From Deltaproteobacteria bacterium (GTDB lineage Bacteria > Desulfobacterota > Syntrophia > Syntrophales > JAIPED01): DNA of 43,220 nt. The position numbers and the translations under genes are program-made. Shown here piece after piece: positions 4,211 to 37,569 of this stretch. The notes below the pieces were generated by a model, which was not told the origin of the DNA, did not search any database, and saw nothing but the letters and a program-made list of their open reading frames with translations. The stretch's first letter is position 1. Every line of letters starts with the position of its first letter. Location: the NCBI GenBank assembly GCA_021737325.1, contig JAIPED010000008.1, positions 1 to 43,220 on the forward strand, given 5' to 3'.

Positions 4211-4696
4211 ATGAAGGCGGAACTTCTCAAGGAGTTTTCCCACGCTCAAGTGTCCCAGCTTGATACCATCATTGCCAGGCACAAGGGAAAGCCGGGATGT
4301 TTGATTCCGGTGTTGGAAGAGGCTCAAGTGGTTTTGGAATGCTTGCCGGCGGCGGTTCAACGCTACATCGCGAAGAATCTTGGGTTACCAGTTAGTCAGG
4401 TTTATGGCGTAGTAACCTTCTATTCGTTTTTCACGATGAAGCCCCGAGGTAGGAATGTGGTGCGCGTGTGTTTGGGAACCGCCTGCTATGTCCGGGGTGG
4501 GAAGGCGATAGCCGAGGGAATTGAAAAAATGTTTGGTTTGCAAGAGGGTGAAACATCCATCGATAGAAGGTTTACCTACGAAAGCGTTCGTTGTCTGGGT
4601 GCCTGCGGTTTGGGGCCGGTGGTGGTTGTCAATGATGATGTACACGGGAGAGTGAAACCGGCACAAGTTAAAGAACTCCTTGAGCAATATAAATAA
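4211..4696 (+). CDS. NuoE-like [2Fe-2S] subunit (HndA/HydC family)
   Basis: 'GKPGCLIPVLEEAQ', 'YGVVTFYSFF', 'CLGTACYVRGG', 'CLGACGLGPVVVVN'. Confidence 0.9.
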   Translation: MKAELLKEFSHAQVSQLDTIIARHKGKPGCLIPVLEEAQVVLECLPAAVQRYIAKNLGLPVSQVYGVVTFYSFFTMKPRGRNVVRVCLGTACYVRGGKAIAEGIEKMFGLQEGETSIDRRFTYESVRCLGACGLGPVVVVNDDVHGRVKPAQVKELLEQYK

Positions 4697-26072: not shown

Positions 26073-26123
26073 GATAGCACCTCTTTATAATTAGGTAGTT
26101 ATTGCCTAGAGATTTTTTTCTGC

Positions 26124-26216
26124 GGAGGGATGGCTGAGTGGCTAAAAGCGACGGTCTTGAAAACCGTTGTGTCCACACCATGGGCACCGGGGGTTCGAAT
26201 CCCCCTCCCTCCGCCA
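26124..26216 (+). tRNA. tRNA-Ser (anticodon UGA), CCA encoded
   Basis: GGAGGGA...TCCCTCC acceptor; anticodon loop CTTGAAA; long variable arm; T-loop GGTTCGAATCC; 3' GCCA. Confidence 0.95.
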
Positions 26217-29719: not shown

Positions 29720-30640
29720 ATGCAGCGTTACTGGGTAATGGCCCCCGTTGAGTCGAAGCCATCAGGTCTATTCGACGCAGTTTGGCAGTTCGACCGCGAC
29801 AAGAATGTGATATCCATCGGTTGGAGCCAACTTGGCGATGTCACTGGCATGACCAGAGAAGAACTGGCCCTGTCCGTTTCATCAGCGTACCCGGACAAGC
29901 CTTCGCAAACCAAAGGGCTATACACGAACATGTTGTGGGCGTTCTACCACGAGATGCTTCCTGGTGACTATGTGATCGCACGAAGAGGACGGAAGACGCT
30001 TGCCGGCGTGGGCAGGATTACCGGTCCCGCCGCATACGCGCCGGGTCGGAATTCAAATGTCGAGCATCCCGGATTCATAGATGTTGCTTGGCAAGACCAA
30101 CCCCGCGACAAGACATTCCCGACCATTGTATTCCCCATGCACACATTAGCGGAATTTTCGGAGGATCAATTCCGAAGCGTTGTTGAGGGTGGTGGCCCAC
30201 CAATTACCCCACCGAAGGGCGAACCAGAGATCGAAGACCCGAGCGAGTTCGTTTTGGAGAAGTATCTGGAGGATTTCATCGTCAGTAACTTTGCGGCGAT
30301 TTTCAAAGGACACTTGCGGGTATTTGAGGATTCGGAGGGGAACGACGGTCAGCAGTACGCAACCGATGTTGGTCCCATCGACATACTGGCAATTGATGCA
30401 AAGTCCAACGCATTCGTTGTAATTGAGTTAAAGAAGGGAAGGTCCTCCGACAGAGTTGTCGGGCAGATTCTGCGTTATATGGGATGGGTAAAAAGGAATC
30501 TGTGTTCTGATGGACAGATGGTGAAAGGACTGATCATTTGTCGAGATCACGATTCGAAACTGACCTATGCCTTGGAAATGACCAACAACATCGATGTGCG
30601 GTATTACAATGTTTCATTCAAATTGAGAGAGAATCCCTAA
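29720..30640 (+). CDS. EVE-like/NucS-like (DUF91, PD-(D/E)XK) nuclease protein
   Basis: N-terminal 'MQRYWVMAP...ISIGWSQLGD...MLPGDYVIARRGRKTLAGVGRITG'; C-terminal 'GPIDILAIDAKSNAFVVIELKKGRSSDRVVGQILRYMGWV'. Confidence 0.75.
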   Translation: MQRYWVMAPVESKPSGLFDAVWQFDRDKNVISIGWSQLGDVTGMTREELALSVSSAYPDKPSQTKGLYTNMLWAFYHEMLPGDYVIARRGRKTLAGVGRITGPAAYAPGRNSNVEHPGFIDVAWQDQPRDKTFPTIVFPMHTLAEFSEDQFRSVVEGGGPPITPPKGEPEIEDPSEFVLEKYLEDFIVSNFAAIFKGHLRVFEDSEGNDGQQYATDVGPIDILAIDAKSNAFVVIELKKGRSSDRVVGQILRYMGWVKRNLCSDGQMVKGLIICRDHDSKLTYALEMTNNIDVRYYNVSFKLRENP

Positions 30641-30860
30641 CCCGAAGCGGCTCACGCTCGATGTTCAGCGGAAAGATACAAGAAGGCTCTGCTACTAGTT
30701 TAGCGCAAGACGGCTTGGTCAAGAAGGTAGATATCAAATGTACGACATTTACGAGGGTCGAAAGCGGTGTCTGTAAATGAACCGAGGGTGCAAATGATGG
30801 CAAAAATCGCCAAATTGTTGGTAGTCGCTATTGAAGGTTTGCTAGATTAAAATAAATTAG

Positions 30861-30938
30861 GGAGATGGAGTTCTCCTTTAACCGTTATGATGGTTGTCAT
30901 AACTGATAACTCCTGTATGTTAACTAAAAGGAGTTATC
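30861..30938 (+). promoter_or_regulatory. Three-hairpin structured leader with SD sequestration upstream of the antiporter
   Basis: Hairpins GGAGA/TCTCC (30861-30876), GTTATGA/TCATAAC (30884-30903), GATAACTCC/GGAGTTATC (30905-30938); the last contains the SD of the gene starting at 30940. Confidence 0.6.
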
Positions 30939-30939
30939 T

Positions 30940-32142
30940 ATGGAACACATTTATTTTATTGCTTCTCTGTGGTTATCACTTGCCGTTCTCTCTGCGATTG
31001 TCGCGTATCACCTCCGAATTTCGATAGCGTTAGTTGAAATCTGCGTCGGAATTATCGCCGGTGCCATTGCGACAAATTATTTTGGCGCAAATTCCCTCGG
31101 AAACAATCTTGAATGGCTAAAATTTTTAGCTTCAGCCGGTGCCATATTTCTCACTTTTCTCGCGGGTGCCGAGCTTGATCCGAAAGTAATAAAGGTAAAA
31201 TGGAAAGAAGTATTGATCGTGGGTACGGTGGGTTTTGCGGCTCCCTTTTTAGGATGCGCCGCAATTGCCTATTATTTGCTTGGTTGGAGTACGCAAGCGA
31301 GTCTTTTGGCTGGGGTAGCGCTTTCAACGACCTCAATGGCTGTTGTATATGCTGTCATGTTGGAAACGGGATTTAATAAGACAGAATTCGGAAAAGGCAT
31401 ACTTGCTTCATGTTTTATCAATGATTTGGGAACGGTAATAGTACTGGGATTGTTGTTTGCGCCGTTTACTTACAAGACATTAGTATTTGTTGTCGTTACA
31501 GTGGCGCTGGTGTTTTCACTACCACCTTTGACCTCTTTCTTTACAAAAATGTACGGGAACAGAACTGCCGCGATTCGTGTAAAGTGGATATCGTTTATTT
31601 TGTTTGCGATGGGCGCTTTGGCTATCTGGTCGGGAAGTGAAGCGGTTCTGCCGGCGTATATTGCGGGAATGGTGCTTGCCGAATTCTCATCGCAAAATCA
31701 TGCTTGGATAAGGCGTTTGCGTTCTTTAACAGTTGGGCTTCTTACACCGTTTTATTTTATCCGAGCAGGTTCATTTGTTTCGTTGCCTGCGTTATTTTCC
31801 GCACCATTGATTTTTGTGGTTCTTCTGTTGGGTAAAGTAGGAACGAAAATCTTCGGCCTGTATCCGATAATTGGTCTGTTTCGCCAAGAATCAAAGGAGC
31901 GCTGGTATTATACTTTGATGATGTCTACTGGACTTACATTCGGCACGATTTCCGCCCTATACGGATTTTCACACGGCATAGTAACGGAATTTCAATATTC
32001 TTTTTTGGTGATGGTTGTAATTGGCAGTGCGGTTATTCCAACAGCCATTGCCAATTTTAAATTTTTACCCAAGCACTTATTGCCCGTAGGTGCGGAAGCA
32101 AAAAGAAAAGCGTCTCCACCTGATGGATTAAGTGAGGAATAG
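30940..32142 (+). CDS. Cation:proton antiporter (CPA2/KefB-like membrane domain)
   Basis: Multi-TM; 'FLAGAELDPKVIKVKWKEVL', 'GVALSTTSMAVVYAVMLETG', 'ILASCFINDLGTVIVLG'. Confidence 0.88.
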   Translation: MEHIYFIASLWLSLAVLSAIVAYHLRISIALVEICVGIIAGAIATNYFGANSLGNNLEWLKFLASAGAIFLTFLAGAELDPKVIKVKWKEVLIVGTVGFAAPFLGCAAIAYYLLGWSTQASLLAGVALSTTSMAVVYAVMLETGFNKTEFGKGILASCFINDLGTVIVLGLLFAPFTYKTLVFVVVTVALVFSLPPLTSFFTKMYGNRTAAIRVKWISFILFAMGALAIWSGSEAVLPAYIAGMVLAEFSSQNHAWIRRLRSLTVGLLTPFYFIRAGSFVSLPALFSAPLIFVVLLLGKVGTKIFGLYPIIGLFRQESKERWYYTLMMSTGLTFGTISALYGFSHGIVTEFQYSFLVMVVIGSAVIPTAIANFKFLPKHLLPVGAEAKRKASPPDGLSEE

Positions 32143-32202
32143 GCAGGGATATGATTTATTACCAAATAGGCAGGTATTTATTGCCCAGAGATTTTTTGCT
32201 GC

Positions 32203-32295
32203 GGAGGAATGGTTGGGTGGCTAAAAGCGGCGGTCTTGAAAATCGTTGTGTCCACACCATGGACATCGGGGTTTCAAGTCCCCCTCCCTCCGTCA
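32203..32295 (+). pseudogene. Degenerate duplicate of tRNA-Ser(UGA)
   Basis: Colinear with tRNA 26124-26216 but mutated: GGAGGAA acceptor, GGTTGGGTGG D arm, T arm TTTCAAGTC, 3' GTCA; upstream leader also similar ('ATTGCCYAGAGATTTTTT'). Confidence 0.9.
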
Positions 32296-35466: not shown

Positions 35467-37569
35467 ATGTCAGTACAGACGCATCAGCAGACCGCCAATT
35501 TTATCTGGAATATTTGTAATCTGCTTCGTGGACCATATAAACGCAACGAATACCGCAAGGTTATTCTCCCTTTGACCATATTGCGTCGCTTTGATTGCAT
35601 TCTTGAGCCGACTAAAAACGAAGTGCTTATAGAGTTCGCCAAACTCAAGGGAAAATCAGAGAACATAATCAGCGCACAATTGAGAACAATAACTGGTGTT
35701 CCCTTTTATAACCTTTCCCCGCTGACATTCAAACAATTGCTGGATGATCCGAATCAGATAGCGCCGAACCTGAACAGCTATATCAATTTATTCTCTCCTA
35801 ATGTGCGGCAGATATTTGAAAAGCTGGAATTCAGTACGCAAGTATCCAAGATGAACGAGAAGAATCTGCTGTTCCATGTGGTCAAAAAATTCGCTTCTAC
35901 TGAAGTCGATTTGTCTCAGACCAATATCGACAACTTGCAGATGGGCTATGTGTTTGAAGAGCTGATAAGAATAGGCGCGGAGCAATCGAACGAAGAGGCG
36001 GGGGAGCACTTTACCCCGCGTGAAGTTATTAAGCTTATGGTTAATCTGTTACTATCTCCTGAAACAGACCTGCACAAAAGCCATGTCGTAAAAACAATCT
36101 ACGACCCAGCCTGCGGCACTGGCGGTATGCTTTCCGTGGCCGAAAACTATATCCGCAAATTGAATACCCAAGCCCAGCCGCATTTGTTTGGTCAGGACTG
36201 GAATGACGAAGCCTACGGCATTTGCCGTGCCGATATGCTGATCAAGGGTGAAGACTCCGATAATATCAAGCCGAACTGCACTTTTGAGGAAGATGGTTTT
36301 CCTCAAGCAAAATTTGATTACATGTTGGCCAATCCGCCCTTTGGCGTAGAATGGAAGCAGCAGCAAAAATCCATTGAAAATGAAGCCAAGACCCTGGGTT
36401 ACGATGGCCGCTTTGGCGCGGGCACGCCCCGTATCAACGACGGTTCGTTGCTGTTTCTTCAGCACATGATTTCCAAGATGCGTAGCTTTGCGGAGGGCGG
36501 AAGCCGTATCGGGATTGTCTTCAATGGTTCGCCGCTCTTTACCGGCGATGCGGGAAGCGGGGAATCCAATATCCGCCAATGGATTATTGAGAATGACTGG
36601 TTAGAAGCGATTGTTGCCCTGCCGGATCAGCTTTTTTATAATACGGGCATTGCTACCTATATTTGGATTGTTACCAACCGTAAAGAAAAACGCCGCACGG
36701 GCAAGATTCAGCTAATAGATGGGCGAGAGTTTTTTGTAAAAATGCGCAAGAGTCTGGGAAACAAGCGTAACCAGATTGGCGATGGCGAAGAAAACAGACC
36801 AGATCAGATTGCTGAACTGAGTAGGATTTATGGTAACTTTACCCACGACGAAACGCGGACTATTGAGGTCGATGGCATTAAGAAACGGGTAATCGTCAGT
36901 AAAATATTTGATAATAATGACTTCGGCTACAACAAGATCACGGTGGAGCGCCCCTTGCGCCTAAATTTTCAGGCTAGCGACGAACGCATTGCCCTTTTGG
37001 ACGACCTGCGCGCCTTTCAGAAAATTGCCGAAAGCGACAAGAAAAACGAAACCATGCGCCAGCAGGCAATTGAAGACGGAAGCAAACGCCAAGCGGAGAT
37101 CCGAACCATGCTCCATGATTTACAGCAGGCAACGGCGGGGAAACTGTTCAAGGACCGCATCACTTTTTTAAAAGAACTGAAAGCCATCGACCCGAAGTCG
37201 GGCATGCGTCTGTCGTCGCCCGAGCTGAAAGCCATTCTGGAAGCCTTGAGCGCAAAGGACGAGACCGCCACAATCTGCCGCGACGCCAAGGGCAATGCTG
37301 AAGCCGATGCCGATTTGCGCGATACCGAGAATGTGCCGCTTAAGGAAAGTATTGAGGGATACTTCCAACGAGAAGTCCTTCCCCATGTTCCCGATGCCTG
37401 GATTGACCACAGCAAAACAAAGGTCGGCTACGAGATTCCGCTCAACCGTCATTTCTACCGCTACGAACCGTCGAGAACTCTTGAGACAATAACCGCCGAA
37501 GTCAAAAAACTGGAAGGCGAGATTGTGGCAATGCTAGCTGAGATAACCGGCAGCGGAGGGAAAACATGA
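35467..37569 (+). CDS. hsdM: Type I restriction-modification system methyltransferase subunit
   Basis: 'EHFTPREVIKLMVNLL', 'DPACGTGGML', 'MLANPPFGVEW'. Confidence 0.95.
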   Translation: MSVQTHQQTANFIWNICNLLRGPYKRNEYRKVILPLTILRRFDCILEPTKNEVLIEFAKLKGKSENIISAQLRTITGVPFYNLSPLTFKQLLDDPNQIAPNLNSYINLFSPNVRQIFEKLEFSTQVSKMNEKNLLFHVVKKFASTEVDLSQTNIDNLQMGYVFEELIRIGAEQSNEEAGEHFTPREVIKLMVNLLLSPETDLHKSHVVKTIYDPACGTGGMLSVAENYIRKLNTQAQPHLFGQDWNDEAYGICRADMLIKGEDSDNIKPNCTFEEDGFPQAKFDYMLANPPFGVEWKQQQKSIENEAKTLGYDGRFGAGTPRINDGSLLFLQHMISKMRSFAEGGSRIGIVFNGSPLFTGDAGSGESNIRQWIIENDWLEAIVALPDQLFYNTGIATYIWIVTNRKEKRRTGKIQLIDGREFFVKMRKSLGNKRNQIGDGEENRPDQIAELSRIYGNFTHDETRTIEVDGIKKRVIVSKIFDNNDFGYNKITVERPLRLNFQASDERIALLDDLRAFQKIAESDKKNETMRQQAIEDGSKRQAEIRTMLHDLQQATAGKLFKDRITFLKELKAIDPKSGMRLSSPELKAILEALSAKDETATICRDAKGNAEADADLRDTENVPLKESIEGYFQREVLPHVPDAWIDHSKTKVGYEIPLNRHFYRYEPSRTLETITAEVKKLEGEIVAMLAEITGSGGKT

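Follow-up and report, generated by a model that had tools for sequence, protein, structure and literature searches.

What does the leader RNA in front of a cation/proton antiporter gene sense, and why should such a gene be under its control? This question is raised by a locus in a 43,220-nucleotide stretch of DNA from a Deltaproteobacteria bacterium (contig JAIPED010000008.1), hereafter the window. The original prediction placed a switch-like leader at 30861-30942, and all the sequence elements that it described are found at their positions in the leader 30852-30945; its start has to be shifted, as the aptamer match begins slightly upstream at 30852. The minimum free energy (MFE) fold of the leader consists of exactly the three tandem hairpins that had been foreseen before the start codon (-29.8 kcal/mol, z = -3.1), and this stability is matched by 1 of 200 dinucleotide shuffles. 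All leader elements lie on the + strand. Hairpin 1 is the P1 stem of the Rfam alignment, with its 5′ strand GGAG (30861..30864) paired to CTCC (30873-30876); one P1 pair shows two-sided changes among 14 homologous leaders. Its loop holds the pseudoknot 5′ strand GGAGTT (30867..30872), the exact complement of AACTCC (30908-30913), with which it would pair when fluoride is bound, judging from the riboswitch class discussed below. Hairpin 2 is the 8-bp P3 hairpin (30884..30903; 30884-30891 with 30896-30903), found in both the MFE fold and the Rfam alignment. Hairpin 3 is a perfect 10-bp stem, one pair longer than first noted, between the switching strand GATAACTCCT (30905..30914) and the Shine-Dalgarno (SD) arm AGGAGTTATC (30929..30938). 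It has a stability of -13.6 kcal/mol, and an equally long perfect stem was absent from all 500 dinucleotide-shuffled versions of the leader (mean 5.7). As expected, it buries the SD GGAG (30930-30933), which is located 6 nt before the ATG at 30940 and has an unpaired probability below 0.001 in the free leader; the gap between the end of the hairpin and the start codon is 1 nt. The repeated GTTAT (30884-30888 and 30933-30937) and ATAAC (30899-30903 and 30906-30910) segments are also present at two sites each. A weak sigma-70-like site at 30894-30921 falls within the aptamer; it does not exceed chance expectation and was discarded.

It is evident from the Rfam search that the leader contains a fluoride riboswitch aptamer. 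RF01734 (crcB motif) matches 30852..30922 with 50.3 bits (cmscan; gathering score 34) over the whole model (1-64), with E-values of 3.8e-11 over the window and 3.7e-13 on the 411-bp region 30650-31060. The alignment is full-length without a broken pair, both the P1 and P3 stems are present, and this is the sole match to RF01734 in the source genome. GGAGTT and AACTCC, already recognized as exact alternative partners, form the defining six-bp pseudoknot of the aptamer (30867-30872 with 30908-30913). Mapping by hand from the 4ENC aptamer numbering, we take A30906-U30914 to be the linchpin pair A40-U48; both bases are present and are invariant in the 14 leaders. The linchpin pair A40-U48 and a six-bp pseudoknot are known features of the fluoride riboswitch (PMC11077080). 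Judged by its sequence, the leader RNA is a newly found member of this known class, an assignment that we make with high confidence, and with the whole model aligned at such a score the idea that it is perhaps unrelated to known classes has to be given up.

One strand, 30905-30914, serves in both folds: it contains all of the pseudoknot 3′ strand together with the two linchpin bases, and in hairpin 3 it acts as the anti-SD arm. The proposal that mutually exclusive folds control access to the SD is borne out by an alignment of 14 short-spacer leaders of homologous genes, in which both folds are conserved while some of their base pairs have changed on both sides. In the fluoride-bound (ON) fold, comprising P1, P3 and the pseudoknot, 168 of 168 cells are paired and two pairs show two-sided changes; the pseudoknot itself is kept in 14/14 leaders (84/84 cells). 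In the OFF fold, comprising P1, P3 and the SD stem, 98.7% of cells are paired, and pairing falls to 39-56% in slid controls. Four OFF-fold pairs have changed on both sides, giving 11 such cells, a level reached by 0 of 500 shuffles, where most of the leaders belong to a single order-level group and their relatedness is not removed by the shuffling. For instance, the fourth pair of the SD stem is A-U or G-C in five leaders each and G-U in four. Since the homologous leaders covary in both folds, the original prediction comes through the covariation half of the test that had been set for it.

The leader is very probably a fluoride riboswitch of the crcB/RF01734 class whose expression platform acts on translation. 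By analogy with its class, fluoride would be the ligand, and the riboswitch would act in the ON direction on translation. In the absence of fluoride, GATAACTCCT would pair with AGGAGTTATC, so that the SD is buried and the antiporter remains untranslated. In its presence (as a Mg2+-F complex), AACTCC would be kept in the pseudoknot with GGAGTT, and A30906 and U30914 would make the linchpin pair; the pseudoknot locked by fluoride would then block the SD hairpin and turn antiporter translation on. Two observations fit this scheme less well. The top (end) pseudoknot pair is U-A in the window, whereas the aptamer of PMC11077080 has a wobble there that is important for switching. Furthermore, when the pseudoknot strands are held aside in ViennaRNA, which considers nested folds only and leaves the pseudoknot unscored, 11 kcal/mol of competing structure is removed, but the SD still pairs with the coding sequence (its first two bases are about 0.15-0.16 unpaired). 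Because the nested model pairs the SD weakly with the coding sequence, we infer SD release rather than compute it.

Control of transcription termination by the fluoride aptamer, in place of translation, is very unlikely. Although terminators follow the aptamer in other antiporter-linked homologues (L150, L151, L041 and L050), only 17 nt separate the aptamer match from the ATG in the window, no U-tract follows hairpin 3, which stops just short of the start codon, and a search of the + strand from the aptamer to the start found no site resembling an intrinsic terminator. A Li+/Na+ or pH riboswitch, or an RNA thermometer, as first supposed from the cation/proton antiporter gene downstream and in keeping with the control of nhaA by Li+ riboswitches (PMC9646797), is scarcely credible and is rejected on the Rfam result, since the proposed Infernal check found no match at E<=10 to nhaA-I, nhaA-II, DUF1646 (Na+-I) or thermometer families in 30650-31060, as against 3.7e-13 for RF01734, and the 10-bp SD stem probably exceeds typical thermometer stability; what stands of that supposition is the switch-like leader before an antiporter gene.

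Among 74 leaders linked to homologous CPA genes, one aptamer is combined with three platform designs. The SD-hairpin design of the window is shared by L106, L016 and others, and an intrinsic terminator re-using the pseudoknot strand is found in L150, L151 and L041. In the third design, an SD-proximal GGAGGACTCC-like sequence shows complementarity over 7-10 bp to the P1 loop and the P1 3′ strand. This design is present in 26 of the 74 leaders at a shuffle P<=0.05, with about 4 expected (e.g., L031, L035, L084, L089 and L146), which raises the possibility that P1-loop complementarity is a second way of coupling the fluoride aptamer to translation. The corresponding pairing of the SD to the P1 loop in the window is of 6 bp (P = 0.17), and this design does not apply there. 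The nearest homologue, L031, has the P1-loop design (10 bp), and the platform seems to have switched several times within the clade. At one locus (L109), an nhaA-I (Li+/Na+) riboswitch above the gathering score is located at 4423-4479, just downstream of the CPA gene under fluoride riboswitch control, placing two ion riboswitches in neighbouring units. In relatives from the same order as the window, most fluoride riboswitches precede a protein of about 500 amino acids with a dynamin-like GTPase N-terminus (L003-L005, L008-L014, L018, L019, L023, L024, L027, L028 and others); PF00350 is present in the members tested (L011, L018, L029, L056 and L098), and we found no paper in the open-licence literature on a link between fluoride riboswitches and dynamins.

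The gene downstream of the leader (30940..32142, + strand) encodes a CPA2-type cation/proton antiporter of 400 amino acids with an ND motif and no TrkA domain. PF00999 is the only Pfam family that it matches (E = 4.6e-32; 111.7 vs 26.2 bits), with no match to PF02537 (Fluc) or PF00654 (CLC). It is below the cut-off of TIGR00932 and scores 45 vs 804 bits against the KefB/KefC equivalog, and a second (C-terminal KTN/TrkA) domain is absent. An AF2 model built from 44 homologues has a pLDDT of 86, and the nearest solved structures by both sequence and fold are NapA and KefC. Family members from about 24 phylum-level groups are 59-79% identical to the window protein, with ALSTTS, N161-D162 (N in at least 90%), E234, R259, R261, K299, K303 and STGLTFG invariant.

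The linkage of this family to the fluoride riboswitch extends across phyla. Among 80 CPA loci drawn from GTDB genomes blind to riboswitch presence, 57 are preceded on the same strand, at a distance of at most 450 nt, by an RF01734 match that exceeds the gathering score, and clear sub-threshold aptamers at L036 and L090 bring the linked loci to 59 of 80. In this unbiased set of loci, about 74% of the clade is thus linked to the riboswitch; the corresponding proportions are about 15% for Flucs and about 30% for CLC-Fs (PMC11139923). At four other loci (L045, L047, L048 and L098) the aptamer is further upstream, with an intervening gene in three of them (Usp, enolase, dynamin-like). In a phylum sample of 395 genomes, taking an antiporter match of at least 200 bits as presence (CPA+), the riboswitch is found in 54 of 58 CPA+ genomes vs 104 of 337 CPA- genomes (P = 5e-20; genomes not independent). 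The antiporter may mitigate fluoride toxicity, either by F- export or by lessening pH-driven trapping, a view that we hold with lower confidence than the identity of the RNA.

How the antiporter acts under fluoride stress can be read in three ways. It could serve general pH or sodium homeostasis, which is the reading of reviews and a real, if less than probable, possibility: among the gene classes associated with the riboswitch, Na+/H+ antiporters rank next in frequency to the exporters and have been tied to pH homeostasis (PMC11139923). Taken alone, however, this reading does not explain why Fluc and CLC are scarce in CPA+ genomes. In the phylum sample, where genomes are not phylogenetically independent and metagenome-assembled genomes (MAGs) are incomplete, Fluc is present in 10 of 58 CPA+ vs 165 of 337 CPA- genomes (P = 5.8e-6, Fisher's exact test). 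Neither Fluc nor any CLC is found in 29/58 CPA+ vs 75/337 CPA- genomes (P = 3.4e-5), or, among riboswitch-containing genomes, in 26/54 vs 14/104 (P = 4.8e-6), the genomes again not being independent. The source genome (1.49 Mb, 89% complete) likewise has no Fluc and no CLC, and contains one other PF00999 gene. CLC-F is inseparable from other CLCs by profile, and therefore PF00654 together with the signature motifs GNNLI/GMGLI of CLC-F (PMC11139923) was used. Nineteen of the 48 CPA+ genomes without Fluc have a CLC match (18 over the cut-off); the readable motifs conform to the usual G[KR]EGP pattern, with no GNNLI/GMGLI signature among them, and no CLC-F was found near riboswitches by a regex search.

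These distributions bear on a second reading, in which the CPA2 family itself exports fluoride and would stand as a third kind of exporter next to Fluc and CLC-F; we regard this as possible but doubtful. Its support lies in the riboswitch linkage, the rarity of Fluc and CLC among CPA+ genomes, their absence from the source genome, and the lack of the CLC-F signature in readable CLCs. It also draws on one genus in which the riboswitch stands before the CPA gene in two genomes (G087 and G123) and before an operon with a Fluc-like protein in a third (G235); in a fourth (G395) it is followed by an operon whose last product is an MFS-like protein, the Fluc-like and MFS-like proteins being named from sequence, not by profile. 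In G123, which has a riboswitch-controlled CPA gene and lacks Fluc, a CLC match (C1:945821-946269; L130, L132) is broken by five stop codons. Against an exporter, some CPA+ genomes have Fluc, in several cases adjoining the CPA gene (G234, G305, G420 and G267), 14 genomes with the riboswitch have no Fluc, CLC or CPA, and the fold and binding-site Asp match the cation antiporters NapA and KefC. Because of these counter-examples, the non-independent genomes and the incomplete MAGs, replacement of the exporters by the CPA2 antiporter is suggested only. The bolder proposal that the CPA2 clade under riboswitch control constitutes a third family, so far unrecognised, of exporters of fluoride (or of antiporters coupled to it), replacing Fluc/CLC-F in many bacteria and moved between phyla with its riboswitch, is speculative and rather unlikely; we found no paper on a CPA fluoride exporter in the open-licence literature.

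The third reading, tentative like the exporter, is a Kef-like antiporter of the K+(Na+)/H+ kind: by admitting protons it would reduce the trans-membrane pH difference and so lessen the weak-acid trapping of HF/F-. Protective acidification of the Kef type is established for electrophiles, and the annotated proteins most closely related to the window protein include KefB/KefC, although this 400-amino-acid protein lacks the TrkA/KTN domain of Kef. The entry of HF is pH-driven (PMC11139923).

The riboswitch and antiporter gene lie inside a 6.1-kb segment between two copies of tRNA-Ser(TGA) on the + strand, located at 26093..26216 and 32172..32295 (ARAGORN). The copies form a 124-nt direct repeat of 89% identity, the second with a weaker tRNA score, and the repeat looks like the border of an island or duplication; no integrase was identified for the segment. 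The window antiporter groups with those of Omnitrophota and Elusimicrobiota and not with its own-order orthologues, and the riboswitch and gene were likely acquired as a unit. The gene upstream of the leader (29720-30640) matches the PADLOC candidate PDC-S02 (E = 2.5e-55) with a PD-(D/E)XK/NucS-like C-terminus, and a type I methyltransferase gene begins at 35467.

As an RNA, the leader is a further example of a fluoride riboswitch; its platform, which sequesters the SD, is well resolved and belongs to a variant that has received less study than the terminator type. Of greater importance is the association with the gene. In reviews, Na+/H+ antiporters linked to the riboswitch are regarded as aids to pH control, and it is an old annotation puzzle why antiporters sit under fluoride control. 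With a clade so frequently linked to the riboswitch and tending to occur where Fluc is missing, this puzzle becomes directly testable, and the antiporter family may be an unrecognised part of bacterial fluoride survival.

Compared with other members of RF01734, the leader is alike in score, P1, P3, the six-bp pseudoknot and the linchpin bases, and is likewise located just upstream of a riboswitch-associated gene class. It also shares their architecture in that the pseudoknot 3′ strand is common to the expression platform, as is one strand in terminator-type members (PMC11077080). The best-studied members, from B. cereus and T. petrophila, end in an intrinsic terminator, whereas that of the window overlaps an SD-sequestering hairpin. 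The Li+ riboswitches nhaA-I and nhaA-II and the Na+-I (DUF1646) riboswitch likewise control cation/proton antiporter genes, but they match the leader in neither sequence nor structure and differ in ligand class. The antiporter shares the CPA fold of the Na+/H+ antiporter NapA (phmmer E = 4e-13, Foldseek E = 3.4e-11) and the K+/H+ antiporter KefC (1.2e-9 and 1.2e-8, respectively) at only 22-24% identity; it differs from NapA in having ND in place of DD, from Kef in being without the regulatory domain, and from both NapA and KefC in being under fluoride riboswitch control. Fluc (CrcB) and CLC-F, absent from the source genome, belong to unrelated protein families, but they are controlled by the same riboswitch class, and Fluc adjoins the CPA gene in some genomes.
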